From the NCBI GenBank assembly GCA_947303805.1, contig CAMYZE010000002.1, positions 227,477-291,476 on the forward strand: 64,000 nt of DNA, in the 5' to 3' direction. A program made the position numbers and the translations under genes. The DNA comes from an uncultured Clostridia bacterium (GTDB lineage: Bacteria > Bacillota > Clostridia > Lachnospirales > Lachnospiraceae). Below, one piece after another: positions 33,311-49,387 of this stretch. Position 1 is the first letter of the stretch. Each line of letters starts with the position of its first letter. The notes beneath the pieces were generated by a model. The model searched no databases. It was not told the DNA's origin and was given only the letters and a program-made list of their open reading frames with translations.

Positions 33311-33338
33311 AAAAAAAGAGCGAGCACTAGGCTCGCTC
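33311..33338 (-). terminator. Terminator at the end of the uracil gene cluster
   Basis: GAGCGAGC (33318-33325) and GCTCGCTC (33331-33338) form a perfect 8-bp stem followed by seven U on the minus strand, 18 bp after the uraA stop. Confidence 0.88.
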
Positions 33339-33355: not shown

Positions 33356-34627
33356 TTAGTCCTCAAATACATAATCTTTTCCAGGAAGTATAGCGTTAAG
33401 TACGATACCAATAACAGCTGCACATGCAAGGCCACCAAAGCTTAATGTGATAGAACCAAGGTTAAGTTGGAATGGGCTTGAGTTGAATGCAAGACCTGAT
33501 ACCATGATAAGAGCAGCGATGATAACGTTTCTTTGATTTGCGAAATCAACCTTATGCTCTACAAGAGTTCTAAGACCGATAGCAGAAATCATACCATAAA
33601 GGATGAATGAAATACCACCGATAACTTCATCTGGAATAGTGTTGATAAATCCATCAACTGGACGAATTACTGAAAGAATGATAGCTACTACTGCAGCAAT
33701 TCTTAATACGAAAGGATCGTAAACTCCTGTAAGAGCTACAACACCAGTATTCTCAGAATAAGTTGTGTTAGCTGGTCCACCAAGTAAGCCTGCAAGTGAT
33801 GTACCGATACCATCACCAAGGAGAGTTCTTGAAAGTCCTGGATCCTTGATAAAGTTCTTTCCACAAGTAGCACCGATAGCTGCTATGTCACCAACGTGCT
33901 CAATAATTGCTGCGAGAGCAACTACGATACAAGTAACGATTGCACCGGCCTCAAATTTTGGGAAGTGGAAAGGAGGTAATGCTATAACTCCGTCAGTTTC
34001 AAATGGCTTTGTCCATCCAAGAGCAAATGCAACAACATAAGATACTATTATACCTATAAGGATAGGTAGTATCTTAACCATTCCTTTACCAAAGATGTTA
34101 CATACAATGATTACAAGAATTGCAACGATTGAAATAATCCACTTTGGTTGTCCAGAAGAGATTGAACCATTGATACAGTTATTAAGTGCTGATGGAGCAA
34201 GTATAAGTCCGATAAGAACTATGATTGGTCCTGTAACTACTGGTGGGAATAATGTCATAACTCTCTTTGCACCAAGTGCATAGATAAGTGCTGCAAGGAT
34301 TACATATACAAGTCCTGCACAAAGAATACCACCTGTAGCATATGGAAGAAGTGCTGGGTCACCATTTGGTGCGATTGAAGCAAATGCTCCAAGGAATGCA
34401 AATGAAGATCCAAGGAAAACAGGTACTTTACCTTTAGTTATAAAGTGGAACCAGAGTGTTGCGATACCTGCGCAAAAAAGTGTAACAGAAACTGAAAGTC
34501 CTGTAAGAAGTGGAACTAAAACAGTAGCGCCGAACATTGCAAATACGTGTTGAATACCAAGAATAATTGCTTGTGGCCATCCTAACTGCTTCCTAGCGTC
34601 ATAAATGCCTGTTTGAGTTGCTGCCAT
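33356..34627 (-). CDS. uraA: NCS2-family uracil permease (UraA type), 423 aa
   Basis: A 14-segment membrane symporter for nucleobases. ITKGKVPVFLGSSFAFL (near residue 65), the acidic substrate region (AAIIEHVGDIAAIG, about 240) and GGISFILYGMISAIGLRTLVEHKVDF (about 340) follow the UraA pattern more than the xanthine/uric acid branch. It is the last gene of the Mo-hydroxylase cluster, which suggests that the pathway substrate enters here. There is a 169-bp leader with an imperfect 9-bp hairpin but no recognised riboswitch, so it may also have its own promoter. Confidence 0.88.
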   Translation of the reverse strand: MAATQTGIYDARKQLGWPQAIILGIQHVFAMFGATVLVPLLTGLSVSVTLFCAGIATLWFHFITKGKVPVFLGSSFAFLGAFASIAPNGDPALLPYATGGILCAGLVYVILAALIYALGAKRVMTLFPPVVTGPIIVLIGLILAPSALNNCINGSISSGQPKWIISIVAILVIIVCNIFGKGMVKILPILIGIIVSYVVAFALGWTKPFETDGVIALPPFHFPKFEAGAIVTCIVVALAAIIEHVGDIAAIGATCGKNFIKDPGLSRTLLGDGIGTSLAGLLGGPANTTYSENTGVVALTGVYDPFVLRIAAVVAIILSVIRPVDGFINTIPDEVIGGISFILYGMISAIGLRTLVEHKVDFANQRNVIIAALIMVSGLAFNSSPFQLNLGSITLSFGGLACAAVIGIVLNAILPGKDYVFED

Positions 34628-34796
34628 ATAATTTTCCTCCTCGTTTTTAAGCGTCGACCGCTCTAAATTTTTTTAGTGATAAAATAACTCACATCTTTAC
34701 CACTATATTATGTATAAATTATACTATAATACTACAAGAAAATAAAGATTTTTGTAAGATTTTTTTAACATTTAATTACTAAATCTACTACTATAT

Positions 34797-37148
34797 CTAG
34801 TTTTTCTTGTTGTTTATAGCCTCAAGCACCATATCTGGTGTTATTGGCATCTGGTTAAATCTTACACCAAGTGCATTTGCTATTGCATTTGCTATAGCTG
34901 GGGCACCAGGAACCATCGCAGGCTCACCGATACCACGAGCTCCAAATGGTCCTGTCTCTTCAGGGAACTCTACTACATATGATTCAAGTACATCTGGCAT
35001 CTCATATGCAGTTGGAATCTTGTAATCAAGGAATGAACCATTCATAAGTTTTCCATCTTTGAGTATCATAGCCTCATAAAGTGCTGTACCAAGTGATTGG
35101 ATCATAGCACCTTCAACTTGAGCTGCATAGAGTTCTGTATTTATAACTTTACCAGGGTCAAAGCAAGAAATCATTTGTAGAACTTTTACATGACCAGTTT
35201 GAGTATCAATTTCAATCTCAACACCAGTACATCCTATAGTCCAGAATGCAACACCTTTTTCTGATTGGCTATCAGCAGGATTGTATGCCATGTTATTTGG
35301 CAATGTAAATGTACCTATACCAATAGCAGGACCACCAATACCAGAACCATCATCAAGAGGCATACCAAGTGCAAATGTCTTCATATCAACTTTCATATCT
35401 CTATGATACTTACTTGCAACTACCCAAGTGCAATCGTGTTCATCATCTCTTTCAAGATACATATCACGAGCTGGATATCCAAGTTTCATCTGAGCGAGAT
35501 CAAAAATTTTCTTTCTCAAATCTTCTGCAGCAAGTTTTACTGCATTACCTGCACAGTAAGTAGTTCTACTTGCAACAGTCTGCCACTCATATGGGTTCAT
35601 ATTAGTGTCACCTGATTTAAGAGTAATTCTATTTGGATTTACATTTAATACTTCTGCAGCTATCTGAGTAAGAGCAGTATTTGATCCTTGACCAATTTCC
35701 TCTGCACTAGTGTGAACATAGAATGTGCCATCTTCATTCATCCTTATGATTGAAGCTGAACCGGCATCAGTAGGCTGAGATGGTGATTTCCATCCTGCAG
35801 CTACCCCCATACATCTTATCTTGTGTTCAGAAACTTTCTTTGGAGTTGGATCGTATTTGAGTTTATCAAGAACAGTCTCAAGACATGGTTGATATCCTGA
35901 AACTTTCATTACTTCACCCATGCCAGTCTTGTCGCCTGGACGAAGACCATTGATTCTTCTTATCTCAATTGGTGATATACCTATCTCATTTGCAACTACA
36001 TCTAAATTTTGTTCTATACAGAAGTGGATTTCGCACATACCAAATCCTCTATAAGGTCCACCTACTGGATGATTTGTATATAAACAATATGAGTTAGTTG
36101 TAATATTATCGATATTATATGGTCCAGCACTTGCAAATCCTGCTGCCTTAGCAATATTTACACCATACTCATTATAAGCTCCGCCATCCCAGTAGAAATT
36201 ATTTTCAACCGCTAAAATCTTTCCAGTCTTATCTACACCAGTTTTTATCTTAGCGAGCATTCCTTGACGAACATATGCATCACGGAATTCTTCTTCACGA
36301 GTATATGTGAACTTAACTGGGCGACCAACATTTAATTGCGCAAGAGGAATTATAATTCCTTCTATTGTAGTTCCAGCCTTAGCACCAAATCCACCACCGA
36401 CAAATTCAGATATAATATGAATCTTATGAAGTGGAATGTCAAATGAGTCAGAAAGAGCATTTCTAACTGCATAAGGTGATTGGCAAGATGCCCAAACTGT
36501 AAGATTACCACTTTGATCAAACTTAACAGTTGCAGTGTGTGTCTCTATAGGGCAGTGTTGAACGTGAGGTACATAGTACTCATGTTCAACTATCTTGTCA
36601 CATTTTTTAAATGCAGCGTCAGTATCGCCCTTCTTTAAGAAGTGCTTGTGAGAAATATTTGTACCTGGAACTGGGTGGAAGATAGGAGCTACACGATAAG
36701 TCTCAAGTTCTGGATGAACTAGTGGAGCATCTGGTTTTAATGCATCCATTGGACTTAATACTGCAGGTAACTCTTCGTAATCAATCTTTACAAGTTTGCA
36801 AGCTTCATGTGCTATCTCAGGAGTCTCAGCGCAAACTGCCACAACAGCTTCTCCTCTATACTTTGCTGTCTCATGAGCGAGGAAGTTTTTATCAGCAAGA
36901 TATAGTCCTCCTCTTTTAGCATAGTAGTCTCCAGTAATAACATTTTTAACACCTGGAAGTTTCTCTGCTTCCTTAGTATCAATTTTTAAAATCTTTGCAT
37001 GAGGATATGGGCTTCTTACAACATCGCAGTAGAGCATTCTTGGCATATTGATATCTGCCGCATACTTTGCCGCACCTGTAACTTTTGCCACACCATCAAC
37101 TCTTGGAAGGTACTTACCTATCGCTGTATATTGACCATCTATTGTCAT
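34797..37148 (-). CDS. Molybdenum hydroxylase, Mo-binding large subunit, 783 aa
   Basis: Large subunit of a xanthine-dehydrogenase/CO-dehydrogenase family enzyme that inserts a water-derived hydroxyl next to a ring nitrogen. GGGFGAKAG (near residue 255), PYRGFGMCEIHFCIEQ and the catalytic Glu in GARGIGEPAMVPGAPAIANA near the C-terminus are present. FAD, Fe-S and Mo subunits are separate genes in order M-S-L. By family it could hydroxylate purines, pyrimidines or N-heterocycles. The neighbours (uracil permease, cyclic amide hydrolase, malonate enzymes) favour uracil to barbiturate, by inference. Confidence 0.92.
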   Translation of the reverse strand: MTIDGQYTAIGKYLPRVDGVAKVTGAAKYAADINMPRMLYCDVVRSPYPHAKILKIDTKEAEKLPGVKNVITGDYYAKRGGLYLADKNFLAHETAKYRGEAVVAVCAETPEIAHEACKLVKIDYEELPAVLSPMDALKPDAPLVHPELETYRVAPIFHPVPGTNISHKHFLKKGDTDAAFKKCDKIVEHEYYVPHVQHCPIETHTATVKFDQSGNLTVWASCQSPYAVRNALSDSFDIPLHKIHIISEFVGGGFGAKAGTTIEGIIIPLAQLNVGRPVKFTYTREEEFRDAYVRQGMLAKIKTGVDKTGKILAVENNFYWDGGAYNEYGVNIAKAAGFASAGPYNIDNITTNSYCLYTNHPVGGPYRGFGMCEIHFCIEQNLDVVANEIGISPIEIRRINGLRPGDKTGMGEVMKVSGYQPCLETVLDKLKYDPTPKKVSEHKIRCMGVAAGWKSPSQPTDAGSASIIRMNEDGTFYVHTSAEEIGQGSNTALTQIAAEVLNVNPNRITLKSGDTNMNPYEWQTVASRTTYCAGNAVKLAAEDLRKKIFDLAQMKLGYPARDMYLERDDEHDCTWVVASKYHRDMKVDMKTFALGMPLDDGSGIGGPAIGIGTFTLPNNMAYNPADSQSEKGVAFWTIGCTGVEIEIDTQTGHVKVLQMISCFDPGKVINTELYAAQVEGAMIQSLGTALYEAMILKDGKLMNGSFLDYKIPTAYEMPDVLESYVVEFPEETGPFGARGIGEPAMVPGAPAIANAIANALGVRFNQMPITPDMVLEAINNKKN

Positions 37149-37150
37149 AC

Positions 37151-37627
37151 TTATTTACCTCCCCTCTTATTTACTACATCTTCAACTGCTTCTATTATTC
37201 TCTTATATCCAGTACATCTACACAAGTTTCCTGCAAGAGCAACTTCTATCTCTTCGCGAGTAGGTTTTTTATTCTCTTCAAGGAATGCAGTGGTAGACAT
37301 AATGAATCCTGGGGTACAATATCCACACTGAAGTGCCACATGATCAATGAATGCCTGTTGAATATCTGTAAGCTTTCCACCTTTTGCAAGACCTTCAACA
37401 GTCAAAACATTCTTTCCATCTAATTCTGGAGCAAGCATAAGACATGAATTTACAGCAAGACCATCAACTATTATAGTGCATGCGCCACATTCTCCTGCTC
37501 CACAGCCCTCTTTTGCACCAGTTAAATCAAGTTGTTCACGAATTACTCGAAGGGCTGTATGATTTGGTTGAACTTCGAGTTCTATTAGTTCACCATTAAG
37601 AGTAAACTTTACATTTATCTTCTTCAT
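37151..37627 (-). CDS. Molybdenum hydroxylase, [2Fe-2S] small subunit, 158 aa
   Basis: Two [2Fe-2S] clusters are encoded: an N-terminal plant-ferredoxin type (GCGAGECGACT, near residue 40, with a further Cys in VNSCL) and a C-terminal helical type (QCGYCTPGFI near 100, GNLCRCTGY near 133). It carries electrons from the Mo site to FAD. It abuts the large subunit with 2 bp between. Confidence 0.95.
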   Translation of the reverse strand: MKKINVKFTLNGELIELEVQPNHTALRVIREQLDLTGAKEGCGAGECGACTIIVDGLAVNSCLMLAPELDGKNVLTVEGLAKGGKLTDIQQAFIDHVALQCGYCTPGFIMSTTAFLEENKKPTREEIEVALAGNLCRCTGYKRIIEAVEDVVNKRGGK

Positions 37628-37639
37628 ATTCCCTCCTTT

Positions 37640-38470
37640 CTAACCAAGTGCCTTTAGGCTATTTTCTAATATACTTTGTGAAACTGAAACTCTATATTCT
37701 TTAGTAGCACGAAGATCAGATATAGGTGATATCTCAGTAGTTAAAATTTTCTTAGCCTCTTCAATTACCTTATCATCAATCTTTTTGCCTTTTAAGAACT
37801 CTTCTGTTTTTACCAATCTTATAGGTGTAGGTGCTACAGAACCGTAAGCAATTCTATACTCATCACCAACCTTTAGAATAGTAGCAACAATATTTGAAAG
37901 ATCTACTTCATGGCGTCTTGCATTCTTAGTATAAATACCTTTACACTCTACATAAGGGAATTTAACTCCAAGTACTAACTCATCTCTTTCAAGAACTGTC
38001 TTTCTAACAAATGTTATAAACTCACGGACAGGGGCTTCTCTTTTTCCCTTTGGTCCTTCAATCACCACAGTTGCATCAAGACAATACATAGGAGTAAGAC
38101 TATCACCAAGAGGTGATGCAGTACATAGATTTCCGACAGAAGTTGCTTTGTTTCTGACTTGCTTAGACCCTACATGTCCGCAAGCATCTGCATAAAATGG
38201 ATAAAACTCTTTAACGTTTTTATCGTTTTGAATTTCATGCATCGTAGCATTTGCACCTACAAAAAGGCCTTCTTTCTTGTCGAACTTGATGCCGTTTAAT
38301 TCGTCAATATGCTTGATATCAATTATAAATTCAGGATCTATAATCTCATCACGAAGACGAACTACTACGTCAGTTCCACCAGCAAGAATAGTTGCTTTTT
38401 CTTTATAAGTGGCAAGAAGATTTAATGCTTCTTTCACTGTCTTAGGTGCAACATATTCAAACTCTCTCAT
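37640..38470 (-). CDS. Molybdenum hydroxylase, FAD-binding medium subunit, 276 aa
   Basis: FAD domain of the CO-dehydrogenase medium-subunit type. The flavin motifs are AGGTDVVVRLRDE (near residue 30) and SVGNLCTASPLGDSLTPMYCLDA (near 110). It delivers electrons to NAD+ or another acceptor. It starts after GGAGAGATTGA and is preceded by a terminator-like hairpin at 38523-38551. Confidence 0.94.
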   Translation of the reverse strand: MREFEYVAPKTVKEALNLLATYKEKATILAGGTDVVVRLRDEIIDPEFIIDIKHIDELNGIKFDKKEGLFVGANATMHEIQNDKNVKEFYPFYADACGHVGSKQVRNKATSVGNLCTASPLGDSLTPMYCLDATVVIEGPKGKREAPVREFITFVRKTVLERDELVLGVKFPYVECKGIYTKNARRHEVDLSNIVATILKVGDEYRIAYGSVAPTPIRLVKTEEFLKGKKIDDKVIEEAKKILTTEISPISDLRATKEYRVSVSQSILENSLKALG

Positions 38471-38522
38471 TCAATCTCTCCTTTCGTTATTTTTTTATAA
38501 AAATATCGTTTGTTTAACTTAA

Positions 38523-38551
38523 AAAGCAAGCCACATTAAGTGACTTGCTTT
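38523..38551 (-). terminator. Internal terminator-like hairpin in the operon
   Basis: AAAGCAAG-TCAC and GTGG-CTTGCTTT form an 11-12 bp stem with one mismatch, followed by TTTTTAAG on the minus strand. It lies between the cyclase gene and the Mo-hydroxylase genes and may lower or regulate their transcription. Confidence 0.65.
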
Positions 38552-38561
38552 AAAATAAAAA

Positions 38562-39368
38562 TTATACGCCTTCAAATCCATCAAATGCAACTATACGAGT
38601 GAATGCAGACTCAATGTCAACACCCTTCCAAGGGAAGCAACCGATAACTACTCTCTTATTTGAAAGTTTATCAATCTCACCACCTACACATTCTGCATGG
38701 ATTATCTCTCCATATTTCTTAGGGAACATTTGAATGTGCATTGCTTGATATTGCTCTGGCCATGGATAAACCTCATTTAAAGATTTTCCATATTTCTTCT
38801 TCATATACTCGTCGCACTTCTTAGCATCCATTGGACACCAATCACGAATCTTTGTATTCATTGGGTGGTCTGCAGATCCGCAGTCAACACCGATCCAACG
38901 AAGTTTCTTTTGATGACACCAGTCAACAAAAGAAAGCGATGGGCCTGGGTGACGAACCATGTATCTTTGCTCATCAGCAGCTGGTTCTTCCCAACCATAT
39001 TTGTGATATCCTGTATTGATTATAAGGATATCTCCTTCTTTTACTTCTACTCTCTTCTCGATATCTTTCTCGCTGTAGATTGACCAGTCCTCAGCACCAA
39101 ACTCATCAGAAAGATCTACAACTACGCCTGGATGGCAAAGTTTATCGAGTGGAAGTCCTGCGATATCTCCGCCTGATGTATCAAAGTGTCTTGGTCCATC
39201 AAGGTGAGTTCCTACATGGTTACTAGTATGGATAATTTGTCCATTAGCACCATTTGAAGAAAGTCTCTTAAAATACTCAACTCTAAGTGGTTGATATGTT
39301 GGCCAAGGTGGTGTTGTAACACCTGTACCAATTGTTAAATCATACATTTTGATTTGATCCCATTTCAT
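38562..39368 (-). CDS. Cyclase-family metal-dependent hydrolase, 268 aa (candidate barbiturate hydrolase)
   Basis: Belongs to the cyclase / kynurenine formamidase / isatin hydrolase family, whose members open amide and cyclic amide bonds with a divalent metal. The metal motif is HVGTHLDGPRHF (about residues 51-62), matching HxGTHxDxPxH. The neighbourhood suggests that it opens the ring made by the Mo hydroxylase. If barbiturate is the substrate, it would yield ureidomalonate and would be a barbiturase unrelated to the known AtzD-like barbiturase family, none of which is in the window. Substrate is inference; the family call is firm. Confidence 0.85.
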   Translation of the reverse strand: MKWDQIKMYDLTIGTGVTTPPWPTYQPLRVEYFKRLSSNGANGQIIHTSNHVGTHLDGPRHFDTSGGDIAGLPLDKLCHPGVVVDLSDEFGAEDWSIYSEKDIEKRVEVKEGDILIINTGYHKYGWEEPAADEQRYMVRHPGPSLSFVDWCHQKKLRWIGVDCGSADHPMNTKIRDWCPMDAKKCDEYMKKKYGKSLNEVYPWPEQYQAMHIQMFPKKYGEIIHAECVGGEIDKLSNKRVVIGCFPWKGVDIESAFTRIVAFDGFEGV

Positions 39369-39405
39369 AAGTATATCCTCCTATTTAAATAATTTTAATT
39401 TTTTA

Positions 39406-39456
39406 GGGCTCGTATAACTCGCCCATACAAAAGGCTCGCAAAGCTTCGCCCCTACG
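39406..39456. repeat. Two dispersed GGGCTCG repeats
   Basis: Copies at 39406-39428 and 39432-39456 between the DUF1116 and cyclase genes. Confidence 0.8.
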
Positions 39457-39459
39457 AGT

Positions 39460-40734
39460 TTATGACATGTAAGTTGCTTGGAAATCTTTTAGTGCATCTT
39501 CAAAACACTTCATTGGTGGGTGAACTATACCAGCACCAACTTGTCCAACACCAGGCTTCTTAGCAGCAACACCAGTGTTGATAACAGGTCTGATTTGAGT
39601 CTTGATAACTTTTCTAATATCAATACCTGTAGCTGAACCACGGAAGTTAAGTGCAGGAATCTTATAAGTATTTCCTTCGCCTTCTGTGATTTCATACATT
39701 TGTCTACTATAATTAAGAGCATCTTCTGGAGTTCCTCCAACGAATTGAACAATTGCTGGAGCAGCACCCATACAGAATCCACCAATACCGCAAGTCTCAG
39801 TGATACAAGAATCACCAACGTCTGGATTAGCATCTGCCTCTGTAAATCCTGGGAAGTATAATCCTTCAACGATCTCTGCTGGACCTGTGAACCATTTCTT
39901 TTGTCCAAGTCCTGCTATTCTTATACCAAACTCATAACCGTTACGAGCCATAGTTGCTACAATTGTAGATCCCTTTGTCTTTGGATTTACATCACAGAAT
40001 GTAGCATCCATTGTACACTTAGCTGCAGGCATAGTTAAGTTAAGGAAGAAGTGGTCATTGCTATCGATAAACTTAAGAGCCTTTACTTTTTGCTCTTCAG
40101 TAAAATGAGTTTGAACTATAGCTGGTGCAATCTTTCTGAAGAATAAAGATGTACCTGCTTTATTTCTATTGTGACCATCATCACCCATTTGAAGAACTTC
40201 TGAAATCATAGCCTTCAAATCAATCTCTCCACAAATTGCAAGAGCTTCTTTTACGATTGGGTAAAGCTCATCTTGTAACCATTTGAGTCTGTCAATAACT
40301 TCTGGTTGATAAGCACCAAATCTTAAAACTTTTCCAAGACCTTCATTGAAAGTACAGAATGCTTTGTTGCCATATTCCTTGTTCTCAACAATAAATACTG
40401 GCATATGATAAGATACGATACCTGCCATAGGTCCTACTGCTTGATGGTGATGACAAGGGTCAAATGTAATCTTACCAGATGCAGCAAGCTGCTCAGCTTC
40501 CTTATCATCCTTTGCAAGACCTTCATACATAAGAGCACCAATAACAGCACCCTTTTGTGGCCCACTCATATGTTCCCAATCTACAGGAGGTCCTGAGTGT
40601 AAAATTGTGGTAGGAGTCATGCCTGGAATATCTTCTCCAGCTGTTCCCATTCCAATAAGAGTTGGTTTAGCACTAAGAATAATTTTTAACACTTCCGCAT
40701 TAGCCGCATTAATTTCTTCTTTTGTAATAGCCAT
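39460..40734 (-). CDS. DUF1116 protein (YlbE/AllG-like), 424 aa
   Basis: Matches the DUF1116 family with SGPPVDWEHMSGPQKGAVIGALMYEG and ITFDPCHHHQAVGPMAGIVS near the N-terminus and SCITETCGIGGFCMGAAPAIV later. In E. coli the DUF1116 protein works with FdrA in oxamate carbamoyltransferase, which phosphorolyses oxalurate to oxamate and carbamoyl phosphate. Here it stands beside fdrA in a cluster that ends in malonate chemistry. The one-carbon-longer analogue ureidomalonate is the natural guess for its substrate. No AllH/YlbF-like gene is visible, so the complex may be simpler than in E. coli. Confidence 0.85.
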   Translation of the reverse strand: MAITKEEINAANAEVLKIILSAKPTLIGMGTAGEDIPGMTPTTILHSGPPVDWEHMSGPQKGAVIGALMYEGLAKDDKEAEQLAASGKITFDPCHHHQAVGPMAGIVSYHMPVFIVENKEYGNKAFCTFNEGLGKVLRFGAYQPEVIDRLKWLQDELYPIVKEALAICGEIDLKAMISEVLQMGDDGHNRNKAGTSLFFRKIAPAIVQTHFTEEQKVKALKFIDSNDHFFLNLTMPAAKCTMDATFCDVNPKTKGSTIVATMARNGYEFGIRIAGLGQKKWFTGPAEIVEGLYFPGFTEADANPDVGDSCITETCGIGGFCMGAAPAIVQFVGGTPEDALNYSRQMYEITEGEGNTYKIPALNFRGSATGIDIRKVIKTQIRPVINTGVAAKKPGVGQVGAGIVHPPMKCFEDALKDFQATYMS

Positions 40735-40776
40735 AATTTTCTCTCCTTTATTTTTTTTGATTAATTTTATTTTATT

Positions 40777-40800
40777 GGGCTCGTGTAACTCGTCCCTACT
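40777..40800. repeat. Dispersed GGGCTCG repeat
   Basis: One copy (ending CGTCCCTACT) between the DUF1116 gene and the small FdrA-tail gene. Confidence 0.7.
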
Positions 40801-40802
40801 AG

Positions 40803-40976
40803 TTACAATAAGTCATCAAGTAAGTTTGCAAGTTCTTGATTTCCACCAGCTACAGGTTTCCAATCAACATGTACTGAAGGAATATTTTGTTTTTTGTTAT
40901 CATTATAAAAACTTTGGATGCCGAAATTTACTATTTGAATTTTCTTTTTAAATAATTCATTTAATTTTCCTGCCAT
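40803..40976 (-). CDS. Small protein resembling the detached C-terminal tail of FdrA, 57 aa
   Basis: The ATG at 40976 follows AAAGGAGAATAAA. The protein (MAGKLNELFKKKIQIVNFG, then VHVDWKPVAGGNQELANLL) resembles, from memory, the C-terminal tail of longer FdrA proteins. The adjacent FdrA here is short (520 aa) and ends before such a tail. A GGGCTCG repeat lies exactly between the two genes and supplies the ribosome site. The simplest view is that fdrA has been split into two genes. It probably remains a subunit of the carbamoyltransferase complex. Confidence 0.6.
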   Translation of the reverse strand: MAGKLNELFKKKIQIVNFGIQSFYNDNKKQNIPSVHVDWKPVAGGNQELANLLDDLL

Positions 40977-40990
40977 TTTATTCTCCTTTC

Positions 40991-41013
40991 GGGCTCGCAA
41001 TGCTCGCCCCTAT
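40991..41013. repeat. Dispersed GGGCTCG repeat between fdrA and its tail gene
   Basis: The copy ends in CGAAAGGAG on the minus strand, i.e. it carries the ribosome site used by the small gene at 40976. Confidence 0.8.
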
Positions 41014-41017
41014 GGTG

Positions 41018-42580
41018 CTATTTTAATTTATCAATTATTTTCTTTACGAGTCTGCATGCTTGTGCATTTGTAGGCATCACGATTGCTCCAGCCTCTTTAA
41101 GTGTATCACGAGTCTTAGATAATCCTTGTGGATCACCCTCTGTACCACAAACTGTAGCAACAACTATAACATCACGTCCTGCTTTCTTAGCAGCCTCTTT
41201 ACCTTTTTTAATAGCATCTGAAAGATCTGCTGCTGGATCTTCGTGTGAACCGTAACCGATAACACAATCAACTAAGATTACTGCACAAGTGTCATCATTT
41301 GCCTCTTTTATAACTCTCTCAGCACGAAGTGATGGATCAATCATTGGGTGAGGACGTCCAACTGTAAATTCATCATCACCAAAGTCAAGTGCTGTGTGTT
41401 CTTTACTTACATCTTTATTTGGAAGTTTGTCTCCATCTTGAAGTGGAATATTAGAATAAATATGTCCACAAGTTGAAAGTAAATACTTCATTGACTCATC
41501 ACAGATTGTACCACCTGTGTAGAGTGCTCTCATATATTTCTGAGTTGGTTTTAAATTCTTAACTGCATCATCAACTAATTTATTTACTTCTGCATCACTC
41601 ATATCAAAGCCATCAAATGTGACAGGTTTCTCACCTTTTGAAAGTGCAACTGCTTTTCTCGCTGCATCTTCAAGTGAAACTGCAGATATAAGTCCCATAG
41701 ACTCTGGTTCCTTTGGATCTCCACCAATGAAACAAACTACTGTTGGTTTTCCGCCTTCCTTTGCCATCTTTAAAACTTCTGTCTGAACTGCTGGATAAGG
41801 TGGCTTAGAAACGAGAACTATAACCTTAGTCTCAGGATCATCGATCAATGCTTTTAAGCAATGTTTAAACATAAGACCGCCGATATCCTTCTTAAGATCT
41901 CTTCCGCCAGTACCAAGAACTTGTGAAACACCTCCGCCGAGTGAGTCAATTATAGAAGAAACTTCTTGAGTACCTGTACCTGATGCGCAGACCATACCAA
42001 TATTTCCTGGTCTAACTACATTTGCAAATGCAAGTGGAACATGGTTTACAATTGCTGTTCCACAATCTGGTCCCATCATGAGAAGTCCTTTCTCTACTGC
42101 CATCTCTTTTAATTCTTTCTCTTCTTCAATAGTTACATTATCTGAGAAGAGCATTACATTGATGTCATGCTTTAAACAATCTTTAGCAACACTATATGCA
42201 TGTCCACCTTTGCCTGGCACTGATACAACTGCCATGTTGGTTCCTGGTTGAGCCTTTATCGCTCCATCAAGTGATGCAGGATAATAGTTAGAAGCTGCGT
42301 CTTCCTTCTTCTCATTTAACTTCTCTTCAACTTTTGCAAGTACTGCTTTCCAAACTTCTTCATCACGAACATTAGCAGCTACAAAAAAGTCATTTGGAGT
42401 AGTCTTCTCTACTTCTGGTGAGTTAAGATTAGGATTGTTGCGATTTAACTCACGATTTAAATCTGTACCCATTCCCACGAGTGCTTCAGTAACACCATCA
42501 AGTTTCTTAACTGCATTTGATATAATCATAAGTGAAACTGAATCATAATATGCACCGGGTGTAATTTGAGCCTTTACCAT
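41018..42580 (-). CDS. fdrA: FdrA-like acyl-CoA synthetase-fold protein, 520 aa (candidate carbamoyltransferase subunit)
   Basis: Shares the succinyl-CoA synthetase alpha-type fold: a CoA-binding-like segment near residue 115-200 (AVVSVPGKGGHAYSVAKDCL, MGPDCGTAI), NIGMVCASGTGTQEVSS and later the ligase-like domain (ALYTGGTICDESMKYLL). FdrA of E. coli is a subunit of oxamate carbamoyltransferase. In this operon it would take the carbamoyl group from a ureido acid to phosphate, giving carbamoyl phosphate usable for ATP. No carbamate kinase gene is in the window. Compared with 550-aa relatives the C-terminal tail is missing and encoded separately at 40803-40976. Confidence 0.87.
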   Translation of the reverse strand: MVKAQITPGAYYDSVSLMIISNAVKKLDGVTEALVGMGTDLNRELNRNNPNLNSPEVEKTTPNDFFVAANVRDEEVWKAVLAKVEEKLNEKKEDAASNYYPASLDGAIKAQPGTNMAVVSVPGKGGHAYSVAKDCLKHDINVMLFSDNVTIEEEKELKEMAVEKGLLMMGPDCGTAIVNHVPLAFANVVRPGNIGMVCASGTGTQEVSSIIDSLGGGVSQVLGTGGRDLKKDIGGLMFKHCLKALIDDPETKVIVLVSKPPYPAVQTEVLKMAKEGGKPTVVCFIGGDPKEPESMGLISAVSLEDAARKAVALSKGEKPVTFDGFDMSDAEVNKLVDDAVKNLKPTQKYMRALYTGGTICDESMKYLLSTCGHIYSNIPLQDGDKLPNKDVSKEHTALDFGDDEFTVGRPHPMIDPSLRAERVIKEANDDTCAVILVDCVIGYGSHEDPAADLSDAIKKGKEAAKKAGRDVIVVATVCGTEGDPQGLSKTRDTLKEAGAIVMPTNAQACRLVKKIIDKLK

Positions 42581-42606
42581 ATTTCCCTCCTATATTTATT
42601 TTATAA

Positions 42607-44079
42607 TTAATTTTTATTGCCAAGTTTTGGAACTTTTCTAAAATGTGAATGTTGTTCAAATCCATATGCTATCTCAAGTAATGTCCCTTCAGTATATGGC
42701 TTACCAAGAATTTCCATTCCCACAGGTACCCCTATAGGAGCAAATTCATCTGGCGTTGAGAAACCGCCAGGGACAACTACTGCCGGAAAACCTGTGACTG
42801 AACCAATAGCACCATTTCTTTGAGCCTGAGTCTTACCTACTTTGCAAACAAGTTGCTGTTGATGAGGGTAAATAATTGCGTCTACCCCATACTTATCATA
42901 AAGTGCCTTCACATCTTTTATAAGTTGTAATCTCTTCTCTGCTCTTTCTTTGTAAGCAGAAGAATTGATATCTATCTTATTTGCATCTTCAAGATTTGGA
43001 ATTATATCTGGAGTGCAAAGCCCACATGATATAAGTTGGTCAAATGTTTGATATTTACAGTTATGCTCTTTCAAATATTTTTCTAACTCATATTTAAAAT
43101 CCCAAAGATGTAAACTTATATCATTTACGAGATGACCAATGTCAAACTTCTCACTTATATCTACTAACTCTGCTCCATTATCTTTCAATACCTTGAAGCA
43201 ATTTTCCATGCACTTATTTACTTCTTTATGGACATCTTCATTTCCCATAAAACTTCTAAGGATGCCAAGTTTCTTTCCTTTTAGTCCATCAATTTTCAAA
43301 AACTTTGTGTAATCACCTTTAGAATTTTTTGCCCCATCTATAGTTACTTCATCTTCAGGGTCAGAACCTATCATCTCATTGAAAGTTTTTACTGCATCCG
43401 TAAGTGTTCTCGCAAGTGCTCCTGCAGTATCCTGAGTAAGTGAATAAGGAACTATTCCCATACGGCTTACAAGACCTATAGTTGGTCTTATACCGCAGAG
43501 ACTATTAGCCGAACTTGGACTTCTGACTGAATTTATAGTGTCTGTACCGATACCGATGAGTCCAAAGTTTGCTGCAAGTCCTGCACCTGTGCCACCACTA
43601 CTTCCGCCACTACTTCTACTATGGTCATAAGGATTATGTGTCTGTCCTAAGATAGAACTTACGTTTTCACCCCACACCGCGAACTCGTGAAGATTAGTTT
43701 TTGCCACTATCACTGCTCCTGCCTTTCTTAGTTTATCAACTACGAAAGCATCTTTGTGAGTTTCAAATCCTTCAAGAGTTTTTGAACCTGCAGTTGTAGG
43801 CATATCATATGTTTCAAAATTATCTTTCACAAGAAGTGGACATCCGAAAAGTGGTAACTTATCTATGATTGATTTATCTTCAACAATTTTTTTATCGCAT
43901 TCTTCTGCTTCCTTAATTGCATTTGGATTTATTAAAATTATTGCATTGATTTTATCATTTTGTTTGTCATAAAGATTTATTCTATCAATATAGGCCTGCA
44001 TAACTTCTTTGCAAGTGGTTGCGCCGGATTTTAAATCGTTATGAAACTTTTCAATTGTTAGTTCTAATATATCGTACAT
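42607..44079 (-). CDS. Amidase-signature family amidase, 490 aa (candidate malonamate amidase)
   Basis: The Ser-cisSer-Lys triad is readable: Lys in LVKDNF (about residue 83), the Ser pair region SRSSGGSSGGTGAG (about 155-168) and the nucleophile Ser in TDTINSVRSP (about 180). The nucleophile loop reads INS instead of the common GGS, which may reflect a special substrate. Family members include malonamidase E2, allophanate hydrolase and glutamyl-tRNA amidotransferase A. In context it would release NH3 from malonamate to give malonate, or could act directly on ureidomalonate. Confidence 0.88.
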   Translation of the reverse strand: MYDILELTIEKFHNDLKSGATTCKEVMQAYIDRINLYDKQNDKINAIILINPNAIKEAEECDKKIVEDKSIIDKLPLFGCPLLVKDNFETYDMPTTAGSKTLEGFETHKDAFVVDKLRKAGAVIVAKTNLHEFAVWGENVSSILGQTHNPYDHSRSSGGSSGGTGAGLAANFGLIGIGTDTINSVRSPSSANSLCGIRPTIGLVSRMGIVPYSLTQDTAGALARTLTDAVKTFNEMIGSDPEDEVTIDGAKNSKGDYTKFLKIDGLKGKKLGILRSFMGNEDVHKEVNKCMENCFKVLKDNGAELVDISEKFDIGHLVNDISLHLWDFKYELEKYLKEHNCKYQTFDQLISCGLCTPDIIPNLEDANKIDINSSAYKERAEKRLQLIKDVKALYDKYGVDAIIYPHQQQLVCKVGKTQAQRNGAIGSVTGFPAVVVPGGFSTPDEFAPIGVPVGMEILGKPYTEGTLLEIAYGFEQHSHFRKVPKLGNKN

Positions 44080-44095
44080 AGTTTTCCTCCTATGC

Positions 44096-44119
44096 GGGCT
44101 CGTGGAACTCGCCCCTATG
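44096..44119. repeat. Dispersed GGGCTCG repeat
   Basis: Single copy between the decarboxylase beta subunit gene and the amidase gene. Confidence 0.75.
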
Positions 44120-44132
44120 GTAATCGTTTCAA

Positions 44133-45329
44133 TTACTTAGTTCCGAAGAATAAGAGTAACATTCCTGCTGCAACTGCTGAACCTATAACACCTGCTACAT
44201 TTGGACCCATAGCGTGCATCAATAAGAAATTAGTTGGATTATATTTTACTCCTTCTTTTTGAACAACTCTTGCTGCCATTGGAACTGCAGAAACTCCTGC
44301 TGCACCTATCATTGGATTTATCTTACCTTTAGTGAAGAAACACATAATCTTACCAATGATAACACCTGCTGCAGTACCGATTGAAAATGCTATAAGACCA
44401 AGAACTATGATCTTTATAGTATCAGGTGTAAGGAAGTGATCTGCTGAAGCCTTAGCTCCTACTGTTACTCCGAGGAATATAGAAACTATATACATGAGAG
44501 CATCTTGTATTGCTTTTACAAGAAGTGGAACTCTTCCTGACTCTTTAAGAAGGTTCCCAAGCATAAGCATACCAATAAGTGATGTAGCATCTGGAAGTAA
44601 CAGACAAGTAAATATAGTAACAACTATAGGGAATATAATCTTCTCAGTCTGAGAAACCTCTCTAAGTTGTTCCATTTTAATAACTCTTTCTTTCTCTGTA
44701 GTTAAAATTCTAATTATTGGTGGCTGAATCATTGGCACAAGTGCCATATATGAATAAGCTGCCACAGCAATAGAACCTAATAGTTGTGGTGCGAGCTTAG
44801 ATGTAAGATAAAGTGCTGTAGGTCCATCTGCTCCACCGATTATACCTATAGACGCTGCTTCTGGTCCTGTGAATCCAAGAAATATGGCACCTATAAATGT
44901 AAAGAATATTCCAAACTGAGCTGCTGCACCAAGAAGTAACGATCTTGGATTAGCAATAAGTGGACCAAAATCTGTACCAGCACCTATACACAAGAAAATA
45001 AGTGGGGGATAGATACCTAAGTCGATACCTTGGAATAAATAGTAAAGAAGCCCTCCCTTTACTGTTCCAAGTGGTCCATTCATGAGGCCCGCGATTGGTA
45101 TATTGACTAAAAGCATACCGAATGCTATAGATATAAGTAAGTATGGCTCGTATTCTTTTGCAATAGCAAGATATAGTAAAATACAAGCTATAATAATCAT
45201 TATTACATTGCCAAATGGTAAAAGCACACCTTCTTTAAATATTGGATTAAAGAAATCATAAAAACCAGTGCCCTGCCAGAAGGTTACCAATGTATCAATT
45301 ATGTTGTTTGCTAAAAATAGTCCTTGCAT
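44133..45329 (-). CDS. Na+-pumping decarboxylase beta subunit (OadB/MmdB/MadB family), 398 aa
   Basis: The membrane subunit that decarboxylates carboxybiotin and couples it to Na+ export. The conserved [17 protein letters not shown], holding the key Asp, lies near residue 170. Around ten membrane segments are visible. The first seven residues (MQGLFLA) and 22 bases around its start are identical to those of the gamma subunit gene at 46171. It closes the decarboxylase block mmdA-oadG-BCCP-oadB. Confidence 0.93.
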
Positions 45330-45363
45330 ATATAACTCCTTCTATAATATAAATTGAATACTA

Positions 45364-45753
45364 TTAACCAATATCAAGTAATACGTCTCCTGCAGCTACT
45401 TTAGCTCCTGCTGATACATGGATAGCCTTTACAGTTCCTGAAGCGTTTGCTGGAATATCATTTTCCATCTTCATTGCCTCTATTACTGCCACTACATCTC
45501 CTGAGTTTACACTATCTCCAACTTTAACTTTGATAGTTTGTACTGTGCCTTGAAGAGGTGCAACTACAGAACCTGCTCCTGCTGCTGGCTTTGGTCCTGA
45601 TGATGCTGCAGGCGCTGGCGCAGGTGTTGCTGCTGGTGCTGGCGCCGCTGCTCTTGGCGCTGCCGCTGGTGCTGCAGATACCATTGAACCACCCAACTCC
45701 TCTACTTCTACTTCGTGCATAACTCCATCAACTTTTATATTAAACTTTTTCAT
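45364..45753 (-). CDS. Biotin carboxyl carrier protein of the decarboxylase, 129 aa
   Basis: A short N-terminal segment, an Ala/Pro-rich flexible linker (about residues 25-60) and a biotinyl domain with EAMKMENDI; Lys95 is the biotin site. It shuttles CO2 from the carboxyltransferase to the beta subunit. Confidence 0.95.
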   Translation of the reverse strand: MKKFNIKVDGVMHEVEVEELGGSMVSAAPAAAPRAAAPAPAATPAPAPAASSGPKPAAGAGSVVAPLQGTVQTIKVKVGDSVNSGDVVAVIEAMKMENDIPANASGTVKAIHVSAGAKVAAGDVLLDIG

Positions 45754-45777
45754 TTCATTTTCCTCCTAATTTTTATT

Positions 45778-45801
45778 GGGCTCGTTCAACTCGCCCTTAC
45801 G
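45778..45801. repeat. Dispersed GGGCTCG repeat
   Basis: Single copy between the gamma subunit and biotin-protein genes. Confidence 0.75.
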
Positions 45802-46171
45802 ATGGTTTAATTTGTGCGAGTAGCCCTCTCTCCGTCCATGCCGTACTACTTTGAGGGATTCTTCTTATTTTTGTAATTCGCACATTGTCTACCGATGTTC
45901 CTAAATACGCTGCGATTGCTGCTGCGATTGCTACAACTGTGTCATCACTGCCCTTCTTATTTTTTACTGGTGCAGAAGTTGCAGTGTTACTTACAGCACC
46001 ATTAGCTTTTTTTGGTTTAGCACTTCCCTTTATGAAAAATGCTGTTATGTCTATCAAGTATGAAATGACAAGGAGAACCAAGAACACTATGGCCATTGCA
46101 AAAATCGAAATGAATAATGCCTGACCAATATCTACTTTATCACCATACATCGCTAAAAATAGTCCTTGCAT
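45797..46171 (-). CDS. Decarboxylase gamma/delta subunit (OadG family), 124 aa
   Basis: One N-terminal membrane segment (about residues 17-42) and a soluble tail; DDTVVAIAAAIAAYLG and the Trp/Arg-containing end ESTAWTERG-like (SSTAWTERGLLAQIKPS) match OadG proteins that bind Zn and hold the complex together. Its start region is a 22-nt copy of that of the beta subunit gene. Confidence 0.85.
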   Translation of the reverse strand: MQGLFLAMYGDKVDIGQALFISIFAMAIVFLVLLVISYLIDITAFFIKGSAKPKKANGAVSNTATSAPVKNKKGSDDTVVAIAAAIAAYLGTSVDNVRITKIRRIPQSSTAWTERGLLAQIKPS

Positions 46172-46186
46172 ATGTTCCTCCTTTCA

Positions 46187-47731
46187 TTACAATGGAATAT
46201 TTCCATGTTTCTTATTTGCTTTATGTACAACTTTTGATTCGAGTGAATCAAATGCCGCAATTAACATCTTCCTTGTAGTGGCTGGTTCTATAACATCATC
46301 TACATATCCACGACTTGCAGCCACATATGGATTCATCATCATATTATCATATTCTGCGATTTTCTTTGCTCTTTCTTCTTGTGGATTACTTGCTGCCTTT
46401 ATGTCTTTTGCGAATATGATGTTTGCAGCTCCTTCAGCTCCCATAACTGCTATCTGTGCCTCAGGCCAAGCATAAACTATATCAGCTCCAAGATGTTTTG
46501 AGCACATACCTATGTATGCTCCACCATATGCTTTACGAGTTATAACTGTAACCATAGGAACTGATGCTTCTGAATAAGCGAAGAGCATTTTTGCTCCGTG
46601 ACGAATGATTCCGCCGTGCTCTTGTTGAGTGCCAGGCAAGAAGCCAGGAACATCTTCAAGAGTGAGTATAGGTATATTAAAGCAATCACATGTTCTTATA
46701 AATCTAGCTGCTTTATCTGATGCATTTATATCAAGACATCCTGCCATAAACTTTGGTTGACTTGCGATGATTCCCACTGATCTACCACCAAGGCGAATGA
46801 AACCAGTTAAAATATTTTTTGCATACTCTGGTTGAGTTTCAAAAAATACATTGTTATCTGCAACTGATCTTATAACATCTTTCATGTCATAAGCTTTATT
46901 TGGATTTTCTGGAACAATGTCATTAAGTTCTGGACTAAGTCTATTTAAATCATCATTACATGCAAACTCTTCTGACTTTTCCATATTATTTTGTGGTAAA
47001 TATGAAAGTAAAGTTCTTATTTGATCTATACAAGCATCTTCATTTGCTGCATGAAAATGTGCAACACCTGAAATCGAATTGTGAGCCATAGCACCACCGA
47101 GTGCCTCAGCTGTAACATCTTCTCCAGTAACTGTCTTTATAACTTGTGGACCTGTAATAAACATTTGCGATGTGTTCTCTACCATGAAAATAAAATCAGT
47201 AATTGCTGGACTATATACTGCACCGCCGGCACAAGGTCCCATGATAACTGAAATCTGTGGTATAACACCTGATGCCAAGGTATTATTATAGAAGATTCTT
47301 CCATAACCAGAGAGTGCATCCACACCTTCTTGAATTCTTGCTCCACCTGAGTCATTGATACAAATCATCGGTGCTCCAACTTTAAGAGCAGCCTCTTGAC
47401 ATTTTACTATCTTATCAGCATGCATCTCACCAAGAGAACCACCTATAACTGTGAAATCTTGAGCTGATGCATATACAAGTCTACCATTAATCTGTCCATA
47501 TCCAGTTACGACACCTTCGGCTGGACTTTCTTTTTTATCCATACCAAAATTTGTACATCTGTGTTTTACAAAAAGACCTATCTCTACAAATGTACCAGCA
47601 TCGAAAAGTTTTTCTAATCTTTCTCTTGCTGTCATCTTGCCTTGAGCATGTTGCTTCTCAATGGCTGCATCTCCGCCACCTTTACGAAGTTTAGCTTTAA
47701 GTTCATTTAATTCAGTTAACTTCCTTGACAT
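46187..47731 (-). CDS. Biotin-dependent carboxyltransferase (MmdA/PccB family), 514 aa
   Basis: Moves the carboxyl group from an acyl-CoA to biotin. The crotonase-like halves carry GGSLGEMHADKI, GGARIQEGVDALSGYGRIF and, in the C-terminal half, GGIIRHGAKMLFAYSEASVPMVTVITRKAYGG. The sequence alone fits methylmalonyl-CoA decarboxylase alpha. The adjacent MdcA-type transferase makes malonyl-CoA the more likely substrate, giving acetyl-CoA and CO2. Confidence 0.9.
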   Translation of the reverse strand: MSRKLTELNELKAKLRKGGGDAAIEKQHAQGKMTARERLEKLFDAGTFVEIGLFVKHRCTNFGMDKKESPAEGVVTGYGQINGRLVYASAQDFTVIGGSLGEMHADKIVKCQEAALKVGAPMICINDSGGARIQEGVDALSGYGRIFYNNTLASGVIPQISVIMGPCAGGAVYSPAITDFIFMVENTSQMFITGPQVIKTVTGEDVTAEALGGAMAHNSISGVAHFHAANEDACIDQIRTLLSYLPQNNMEKSEEFACNDDLNRLSPELNDIVPENPNKAYDMKDVIRSVADNNVFFETQPEYAKNILTGFIRLGGRSVGIIASQPKFMAGCLDINASDKAARFIRTCDCFNIPILTLEDVPGFLPGTQQEHGGIIRHGAKMLFAYSEASVPMVTVITRKAYGGAYIGMCSKHLGADIVYAWPEAQIAVMGAEGAANIIFAKDIKAASNPQEERAKKIAEYDNMMMNPYVAASRGYVDDVIEPATTRKMLIAAFDSLESKVVHKANKKHGNIPL

Positions 47732-47746
47732 TTAATACTACCCCCT

Positions 47747-49387
47747 TTATTTTACTAAGAATTTTTCTGGAATGTCATAAAGTCCACCAGAAATATCTCT
47801 TATCTCTTGTAAATTTTTTGCTGCAAGCAATTCTTTATTTGCTCTACTCTTATCTATACCGAGTGTCTCAGGGAATGCTACCTTTCCTTCATTTATTAAT
47901 TCTTGTCTTCTAACATCACTACAGAAACTTTCTATTGGTATTCCTCTAGATACAGCCGCAATCATTTCTCTTCTTTCTTCATTGGTCTTAGCCATATAAG
48001 TATAAGCTATGCCTTGCTCTGTAACTACATGAGTTACATCTTCTCCATAAATCATAACAGGAGTAATTGGCATTCCTGTTTCTTTTCCTACTCTTACTGC
48101 GTCAAGTTCTGGAACTATAGAAGGAATAACTTTTCCTTCTTTATTTTTATAACTTGTAGAAATGATTTGTACTACAAGTTTTCTTCCACCTCTAAGTGGT
48201 CTGCTTGGATCTTTCATTGCTGCCCAGGCTGGAGTAGAGTGACGTCTTCCACCTGAATCGTGTCCCATATTAGGCGCTCCACCAAATCCCGATACACGGT
48301 TTCCTGTAACAGTAGATGAGTTGCCAAAGTAATCAAGTTGAAGAGTAGCACCAAGGAATAAATCCATAGCATAGAGTCCTGCAAGTTGAGCAAATGGACG
48401 ATTAGATCTCATTATACCATCTCGACCTGTGAAGAAAATGTCTGGGCGAGCAGCTGTATATCTACTCATACCAGTCTCTCCTCCGAAGGCATAAACTGAT
48501 TCAACCCATCCTGCTTCTATCGCAGGAATGAGAGTTGGATGTGGATTTAAAACCCAGTTCCTACAAATTTTTCCTTTAAGTCCGAGTTCTTCACCATAAG
48601 TAGGAAGTATAAGTTCTATAGCTCCACCATTATATCCAATACCATGGTTAAGTGATATAACATTATGCTTTTGATATATTCCTTTTATAATCATCATCGC
48701 CTCAAGTATGTGATGATCTTTTATCTTGTCTGGTTCTCTTGTGAAGAGTGGTTCCATAGGGAATGGCTCATCGGCTTCAACAATTGCATCAACCCAGTCA
48801 CCAGGGATATCAACGCGCGGAACTTTATCTACAATTTTATTTACTTGAGCAATTACAATTCCATCTTTAAATGCAGTTGCCTCTACTAAAGTCGGTGTCT
48901 CTTCAGTGTTTGCACCAGTATATAAGTTTCCATCTTTATCAGCTGCATCAGCAGCAACAAGACAAATATTTGGAATTAAATCTACAAAGAGTCTTGCATA
49001 GAGTTCAAAGTAAGTATGAATCGCTCCAACTTTACATACACCACTATTCATCATCTGACTAAGTCTTAAACTTTGAGTTCCTGCAAATGCAAAATTGATC
49101 AGTGATGCAATTCCTTTTTCAAATAAATCAAGATGCTCATCTCTTGAAATTGATGGAATAATTAAATGAATATCATTTACCTGTTTTGAATCAACTTTAG
49201 TCATCGCTTTAGCAAGAAATGATGCTTGTTTCTGGTTATCTCCCTCTAAAATTAAATTATCGCCAGGCTTAATCACACGATTAAGAACCTCGACGATATC
49301 CGAAGTGTTAATAACTTTTCCATTCAAATATTTAGTAACAGAATTAAGTCTCTCGGCTTTCTTCTTCCTATTCTTATCCCATTCCAT
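47747..49387 (-). CDS. mdcA: Malonate decarboxylase alpha-type CoA/ACP transferase (MdcA/MadA family), 546 aa
   Basis: Closely follows MdcA through most of its length: LEGDNQKQASFLAKAM (about residue 48), IHLIIPSISRDEHLDLFEKGIA, GAIHTYFELYARLFVDLIPN, ALNPHP-like WVLNPHPTLIPAIEAGWVESV and GFGGAPNMGHDSGGRRH. MdcA swaps acetyl and malonyl between thioester carriers. No acyl carrier protein (MdcC/MadE) or its prosthetic-group synthase is near, so CoA is the likely carrier: acetyl-CoA + malonate to malonyl-CoA + acetate. It is the first gene of the operon. This gene is what points the whole cluster to malonate. Confidence 0.92.
   Translation of the reverse strand: MEWDKNRKKKAERLNSVTKYLNGKVINTSDIVEVLNRVIKPGDNLILEGDNQKQASFLAKAMTKVDSKQVNDIHLIIPSISRDEHLDLFEKGIASLINFAFAGTQSLRLSQMMNSGVCKVGAIHTYFELYARLFVDLIPNICLVAADAADKDGNLYTGANTEETPTLVEATAFKDGIVIAQVNKIVDKVPRVDIPGDWVDAIVEADEPFPMEPLFTREPDKIKDHHILEAMMIIKGIYQKHNVISLNHGIGYNGGAIELILPTYGEELGLKGKICRNWVLNPHPTLIPAIEAGWVESVYAFGGETGMSRYTAARPDIFFTGRDGIMRSNRPFAQLAGLYAMDLFLGATLQLDYFGNSSTVTGNRVSGFGGAPNMGHDSGGRRHSTPAWAAMKDPSRPLRGGRKLVVQIISTSYKNKEGKVIPSIVPELDAVRVGKETGMPITPVMIYGEDVTHVVTEQGIAYTYMAKTNEERREMIAAVSRGIPIESFCSDVRRQELINEGKVAFPETLGIDKSRANKELLAAKNLQEIRDISGGLYDIPEKFLVK

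Follow-up and report, generated by a model that had tools for sequence, protein, structure and literature searches.

A fourteen-gene cluster of an uncultured Lachnospiraceae bacterium as a candidate anaerobic route from uracil through malonate

The stretch analyzed here, to which we refer as the window, comprises 64,000 nucleotides of an uncultured Clostridia bacterium of the family Lachnospiraceae (GenBank assembly GCA_947303805.1, contig CAMYZE010000002.1, positions 227,477 to 291,476), and at its positions 33356-49387 lies a run of 14 open reading frames (ORFs) that we consider a candidate pathway for the anaerobic breakdown of uracil. The run occupies the minus strand and reads from 49387 down to 33356, with intergenic gaps of 2-169 bases, in the order mdcA, mmdA, oadG, biotin carrier, oadB, amidase, fdrA, tail, allG, cyclase, the FAD, FeS and large subunits of a Mo hydroxylase, and uraA. 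Positions and strand agree with the 14 same-strand genes of an initial annotation that had been made from the letters alone. Families were assigned with Pfam and NCBIfam profiles read against their curated cut-offs and with PDB sequence comparisons, and the profiles bear out the earlier family names for the permease, Mo hydroxylase, cyclase, FdrA, AllG, amidase, MdcA and the biotin decarboxylase with its Na+ subunits. The features are as follows.

47747..49387, minus strand, MdcA-type acetyl-CoA:malonate CoA-transferase, predicted to activate malonate (TIGR01110 806.7 bits, cut-off 789.15; PDB MdcA 5vit, E 3.7e-214)
46187..47731, minus strand, MmdA-type carboxyltransferase of a predicted biotin (methyl)malonyl-CoA decarboxylase (Carboxyl_trans 672.8 bits; TIGR01117 890.4, under the cut-off of 998.8)
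45797..46171, minus strand, OadG-type small subunit of a Na+-pump decarboxylase (TIGR01195 46.7, cut-off 36.05)
45364..45753, minus strand, biotin carrier protein with an AMKM motif at residue 93 (Biotin_lipoyl 72.3 bits)
44133..45329, minus strand, OadB-type membrane carboxybiotin decarboxylase, a predicted Na+ exporter (TIGR01109 498.4, cut-off 190.6)
42607..44079, minus strand, amidase-signature hydrolase with a GGSSGG motif, predicted malonamate amidase (PF01425 295.6)
41018..42580, minus strand, FdrA/AllF, predicted carbamoyltransferase subunit (NF004760 480.3, cut-off 433; PDB FdrA 3dmy, E 1.5e-77)
40803..40976, minus strand, tail protein of 57 amino acids, its ATG at 40976 read from the sequence; recurs between fdrA and allG
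39460..40734, minus strand, AllG (PF06545, formerly DUF1116), predicted carbamoyltransferase subunit (PF06545 319.1 bits, cut-off 27)
38562..39368, minus strand, PF04199 cyclase-family metal hydrolase, predicted barbiturate ring opener (PF04199 115.6 bits, cut-off 23.1)
37640..38470, minus strand, Mo hydroxylase FAD subunit (FAD_binding_5 160.5; CO_deh_flav_C 70.2)
37151..37627, minus strand, Mo hydroxylase 2Fe-2S subunit (Fer2_2 114.7)
34797..37148, minus strand, Mo hydroxylase large (molybdopterin) subunit with a GIGE motif at residue 739, predicted uracil dehydrogenase (MoCoBD_1 247.9; MoCoBD_2 213.8)
33356..34627, minus strand, NCS2 (UraA-type) permease, predicted uracil carrier (TIGR00801 321.5, cut-off 291.8; PDB UraA 3qe7, E 9e-69)
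49589..50470, plus strand, divergent LysR-family regulator at the upstream end of the cluster (PF00126/PF03466; 87% identical to the neighbor of mdcA in locus L027)
33318..33338, minus strand, terminator-like hairpin 3' of uraA (pattern scan)

The motifs AMKM (biotin), GGSSGG (amidase), HVGTHLDGPRH (cyclase) and GIGE (Mo subunit), which we take to be typical of their families, are all present. The hairpin is weak by itself because the region holds 9 such sites against a shuffle mean of 8.5; promoter-like sites (46, shuffle mean 59.4) are rarer in the region than in shuffles, and none of them is used as evidence.

We propose that this cluster encodes an anaerobic uracil route that passes through malonate and would save energy twice, a reading to which we assign a probability of roughly 0.7. 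From the gene families, the gene order and the presence of such sets in further genomes, which are the observations reported here, we infer every substrate and reaction of the route. The UraA-type permease likely imports uracil, which the Mo hydroxylase would convert to barbiturate; the cyclase-family metal hydrolase would open the barbiturate ring to ureidomalonate, and FdrA/AllG would use phosphate to cleave ureidomalonate into malonamate and carbamoyl phosphate. Malonamate would be converted by the amidase to malonate, and MdcA together with the biotin Na+-pump decarboxylase likely turns malonate into acetate and CO2. Energy would be conserved at two points: a carbamate kinase, encoded on a different contig, would make one ATP from carbamoyl phosphate, and the decarboxylase would build up a Na+ gradient. 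The balance that we worked out would be uracil + 6 H2O -> acetate- + 2 HCO3- + 2 NH4+ + H2 + H+, and the reducing equivalents could go to the three [FeFe] hydrogenases that score over cut-off in the host. Thymine could pass through the same enzymes to propionyl-CoA.

The 14-gene order is not due to chance, because locus L027, in a Lachnospiraceae metagenome-assembled genome from water deer rumen, has the LysR gene and the 14 genes in matching order, with identities of 67-97%. A core of permease, Mo hydroxylase, cyclase, AllG, tail and FdrA is kept in L015, which belongs to genome G024 of the host's family and holds these genes (permease 36% identical) together with AllH, and in the Tissierellales locus L028; the tail ORF was matched by tblastn between fdrA and allG in L015, L027, L028 and others. 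That mdcA, mmdA and oadB are absent from the L015 and L028 stretches would suit a chance adjacency of two unrelated operons, one for malonate use and one for ureide use, yet in other families of the phylum the core has mmdA/oadB or mdc genes as neighbors (L063, L077, L083, L088, L089, L098, L106), and we regard such an adjacency as extremely improbable. In L063, the permease end, Mo hydroxylase, oadB, biotin carrier, oadG, mmdA, CN-hydrolase, carbamate kinase, cyclase, class III CoA-transferase, AllG, tail, FdrA, AllH and a PucR regulator form one run of about 17 kb.

At the scale of the phylum, the cyclase profile (E<=1e-60) matches 40 of 398 genomes, and in a scan of the order 4 of 392, the host being included in both counts, while AllG (E<=1e-20) matches 58 of the 398. 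AllG occurs in 39 of the 40 cyclase genomes of the phylum set vs 19 of the 358 others (Fisher p 2e-38, no kinship correction), a p value that overstates the evidence because the genomes are related. Stretches were taken at 37 of the 46 other cyclase places in the phylum scan and at 3 of the 4 other places in the order scan. Our tally of related stretches covers 37 (L015, L027, L028 and L063-L096, window excluded; tblastn E<=1e-8), in which absences are soft because several stretches stop at contig ends; the neighbor tally draws on 54 of 97 unlabelled ORFs and shows 25 of 129 families. The families found in the 37 stretches are fdrA (29), allG (29), moL (26), uraA (22), the PucR regulator (22), allH (21), carbamate kinase (17), CN-hydrolase (17), class III CoA-transferase (8), XdhC (8), oadB (7), the family labelled fam19 (7), thiolase (6), amidase (5, of which those of L091, L094 and L096 are only 27-29% identical), mmdA (4), mdcA (4) and M42 (3). 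The co-occurrence of these families with a carbamate kinase, which the initial annotation had put forward as a check, is seen in other genomes, with the kinase in nearly half of the stretches.

These counts also bear on the amide step. The amidase family is broad, and the aerobic oxidative route of pyrimidine breakdown uses a hydrolytic ureidomalonase, so that the amidase of the window might act directly on ureidomalonate, giving urea and malonate, with FdrA/AllG doing something else. We judge this distinctly unlikely given the carbamate kinase in 17/37 and FdrA/AllG in 29/37 related stretches, and given that 28 of the 34 loci with both cyclase and AllG hold one of four unrelated candidate amide-step families beside FdrA/AllG. 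Different loci have unrelated families for amide hydrolysis and for CoA activation, as would be expected if the chemistry were fixed. The nearest solved structure to the window amidase is the peptide amidase 1m21, with malonamidase E2 (1obk, E 7.6e-18) more distant. Between oadB and the cyclase of two loci (L077:6338-7375, L083:8473-9498) lies an M42-type metallopeptidase gene, in a place that an amidase-type gene occupies in other loci.

Since the E. coli AllFGH enzyme, an oxamic transcarbamylase, acts on oxalurate (PMC11326118), the genes could instead serve oxalurate-type ureide breakdown, in which hydantoin or parabanate would lead to oxalurate, oxamate and oxalate; for the L063 class III CoA-transferase, the best-scoring model is the oxalate CoA-transferase model NF008511, at 391.7 and under the cut-off of 522. 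Against this, a biotin decarboxylase and Mdc genes point to a 1,3-diacid, and AllC/D/E were found in 0/37 related stretches (tblastn E<=1e-8), where malonate-type genes occur instead; the oxalurate/allantoin reading was set aside on these grounds, and we hold it to be very improbable. AllG occurs in 12 of 200 genomes of the host's family, host included. As a contrast, the 10 other AllG loci of that family (L016-L025) have AllC/D/E near AllG in 9/10 and carbamate kinase in 9/10, whereas cyclase, moL and uraA are found in 0/10. In the AllG tree, 9 of the 10 allantoin-group rows fall into a separate group (support 100/98); the branch splitting all ten from the rest is weak (69/63), and one row, L025, is very long. 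The allantoin-type loci L016-L024 carry FdrA and AllG in one open frame of about 1000 amino acids. The allFGHK genes of nitrifiers have been assigned to oxalurate, not to pyrimidines (PMC12625717).

Both ends of the proposed route are marked by curated families in related loci. For the entry, L095 holds a cytosine deaminase (NF006685 568.1, cut-off 483) and a cytosine permease (NF008241 400, cut-off 326), which sit between the Mo hydroxylase (L100, contiguous) on one side and AllG, FdrA, permease, cyclase and carbamate kinase on the other. Cytosine deaminase produces uracil. In L068, a cytosine deaminase-like gene adjoins the cyclase, at 409.6 and under the cut-off of 438. For the exit, the core of L077 adjoins MdcA (TIGR01110 890.4, cut-off 789.15), an acyl carrier protein (TIGR03130 91.2, cut-off 84.1), the malonate decarboxylase beta (TIGR03133 314.3, cut-off 278.15) and gamma (TIGR03134 267.6, cut-off 237.15) subunits and an OadB Na+ subunit, and L083 matches this gene set. 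With both ends given, and with FdrA/AllG, a ring hydrolase and a Mo hydroxylase between them, the simplest chain would be uracil, barbiturate, ureidomalonate, malonamate and malonate. The idea of a pathway is upheld by genomic evidence, in that the same gene sets recur in many other genomes and that entry and exit are so marked.

Thymine, taken as the main substrate, would call for the same chemistry by way of 5-methylbarbiturate, ureidomethylmalonate, methylmalonamate, methylmalonate, methylmalonyl-CoA and propionyl-CoA. The MmdA-type carboxyltransferase of the window comes nearest to the methylmalonyl-CoA decarboxylase family TIGR01117 and, in the PDB, to propionyl-CoA carboxylase; MmdA could equally take methylmalonyl-CoA, so that thymine may also be a substrate. 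A second cyclase type, 43-47% identical, stands beside its own AllG/FdrA in L097, L098, L099 and L105, and two genomes hold both modules (G472 with L064 and L097; G539 with L073 and L098); one type may handle uracil and the other thymine, or a different ureide may be involved. Thymine as the main substrate nonetheless seems unlikely to us, since the window MdcA scores over its malonate equivalog cut-off, the malonate decarboxylase subunits of L077 score over theirs with L083 matching, and the cytosine deaminase of L095 yields uracil.

Among the individual enzymes, the permease offers sites that can be compared. Its residues E243 and E292 align with the glutamates 241 and 290 of E. coli UraA, which contact uracil (PMC5539350), and both are kept in 16/16 permeases that span these positions and are at least 44% identical. 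The second of these sites corresponds to Gln408 in UapA (PMC4837479). The metal-binding motif of the cyclase lies at residue 51, and H51, H55, D57 and H61 are invariant among 4 aligned sequences; homologues of the cyclase include proteins of Alkaliphilus metalliredigens (66% identity) and Moorella thermoacetica (64%). In the libraries searched, neither the Mo hydroxylase nor the cyclase has a close characterized relative.

Several results weigh against the uracil route. UraA His245 is an Asp in the window permease, in the 16 permeases and also in the aligned uric acid-xanthine permease; the score on the uracil permease equivalog NF007995 is 329.6, under the cut-off of 477; and the second glutamate is not decisive for uracil carriers because PDB chain 31ey, named a uric acid-xanthine permease, has Glu at that site. 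The Mo hydroxylase falls under every equivalog cut-off in the NCBIfam scan, and the cyclase resembles kynurenine formamidase and isatin hydrolase of known structure only distantly (best E 2e-7). At the malonate end, the window OadB scores 175.4 on the malonate-specific TIGR03136 (cut-off 596.9), a cut-off that OadB reaches neither in L063 nor in L077; in L077, a second acyl-carrier model (NF002293) scores 73.5, under its cut-off of 115, and the models matched by the beta and gamma subunits belong to the biotin-independent malonate decarboxylase. L095 is a remote version of the cluster (cyclase 48%, permease 31% and Mo large subunit 30-37% identical), decarboxylase genes occur in only 8 of the 34 cyclase+AllG stretches, and the presence of the cyclase is no evidence in most loci because most of them were found through it.

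To the same side belongs the carbamoyl-transfer step. AllH (PF11392) has 0 matches in the host genome G000, a draft that is 98.55% complete, while the E. coli control matched, and a search of the host genome with the L015 AllH protein, run without a positive control, found none; AllH occurs in 21 of the 37 related stretches. In E. coli, allFG in the absence of allH brought oxamate back to only 7% of the wild-type level (PMC11326118). The initial annotation had called the pathway a candidate complete one, which is too strong for carbamoyl transfer because AllH was not found in the host. Its proposal of ATP formation through carbamate kinase is matched by a gene in the genome and not in the cluster: the host has a single carbamate kinase over cut-off, on contig C9 beside recA/recX. 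This remote kinase may serve the purine cluster of the host, described below, or both clusters.

The aerobic oxidative pyrimidine pathway of actinobacteria proceeds through uracil dehydrogenase, barbiturase and ureidomalonase, and the route proposed here shares its intermediates barbiturate, ureidomalonate and malonate. It differs in that Pfam and NCBIfam scans found no AtzD/TrzD-type barbiturase among the 14 genes, the PF04199 cyclase opening the ring in the predicted scheme, in that carbamoyl phosphate would be formed by phosphorolysis where the aerobic route hydrolyzes to urea, and in that malonate decarboxylation would drive a Na+ pump. In the host genome, the barbiturase family PF09663 had 0 matches, and the control genomes likewise gave none. 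Malonate decarboxylases include the MdcA type and the Na+-pumping Malonomonas rubra type, with which the window has MdcA, the biotin carrier and the OadB-type Na+ subunit in common. An acyl carrier protein gene and MdcD/MdcE subunits are missing among its 14 genes, which have an MmdA-type carboxyltransferase instead, so the window decarboxylase would work at the CoA level, whereas the acyl carrier form occurs in L077 and L083. FdrA/AllF and AllG are shared with E. coli AllFGH, along with a predicted phosphorolysis of an acylurea to an amide and carbamoyl phosphate (PMC11326118), while the predicted substrate of the window is one CH2 longer, AllH was not found in the host, and the window AllG stands apart from the allantoin-type AllG of its own family, on a parting branch with weak support. 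With the reductive uric acid pathway of anaerobes the proposed route shares anaerobic nucleobase breakdown with a Mo hydroxylase and carbamate kinase; that pathway is reductive, acts on purines and is based on SsnA, YgfK and hydantoinase (PMC12507026).

We consider that the cluster likely represents a new and widespread anaerobic variant of oxidative pyrimidine breakdown, as judged from its genes and their distribution. A 2025 paper (PMC12507026) names four routes of pyrimidine breakdown, oxidative, reductive, Rut and URC, and an anaerobic, energy-saving oxidative route is not among these four. Among the matches listed from the open-access literature, none concerned an anaerobic barbiturate or ureidomalonate route, a result that is provisional as subscription papers were mostly outside this search. 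If true, the proposed route would supply gene candidates for uracil dehydrogenase, for a second kind of barbiturase, for a ureidomalonate carbamoyltransferase and for several malonamate hydrolases, it would explain why FdrA/AllG occur without allantoin genes, and RNA-derived uracil and cytosine would be a growth substrate for anaerobes of the rumen and other habitats.

The host genome (1.9 Mb, 17 contigs) holds a Mo cofactor gene (Mob_synth_C). The contig of the window also carries, some 100 kb away, a separate purine cluster (L125; G000:C2:106000-125999) with adenine deaminase, Se-dependent xanthine dehydrogenase, YgfK, hydantoinase and SsnA over their cut-offs and a guanine deaminase-like gene under its own, which resembles the reductive uric acid set of PMC12507026. 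With this cluster and that of the window in one genome, the host looks like a nucleobase specialist. A reductive pyrimidine route in the host was rejected, as the lone dihydropyrimidinase-type gene over cut-off sits in the purine cluster; PydA itself was not searched.

A side branch of the cyclase+AllG loci carries a GNAT-fold family without a Pfam match (L015:17436-18098, L070:17096-17893, L089:13677-14432, L106:13694-14356 and others). Its gene occurs in 8 of the 34 loci (L015, L070, L071, L079, L082, L085, L089, L106), all without amidase-type hydrolases and CoA-transferases; the family profile gave 0 matches against PDB sequences, and the placement comes from fold comparison alone. GNAT clusters also hold a pair of a thiolase, 68-71% identical to that of L015, and a rubredoxin-like zinc OB protein, located as follows.

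L015:15763-17418, thiolase/zinc OB pair
L070:17925-19458, thiolase/zinc OB pair
L082:986-2475, thiolase/zinc OB pair
L085:2482-4011, thiolase/zinc OB pair
L104:7313-8846, thiolase/zinc OB pair

Tentatively, and with more doubt than confidence, we join these elements into an undescribed fermentation of uracil and cytosine, widespread in Bacillota, in which the ring would be oxidized, opened and cut with phosphate to make ATP, with malonate as the hub. In the branch of eight loci, the GNAT protein might replace amidase and CoA-transferase by running backwards, from malonamate and CoA to malonyl-CoA and ammonia, and so keep the energy of the last amide bond, and the thiolase pair, present in six of the eight, might condense malonyl-CoA with acetyl-CoA towards butyrate. 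Homologues of the GNAT protein include proteins of Flavonifractor sp. DFI.6.63 and of an Oscillospiraceae bacterium.

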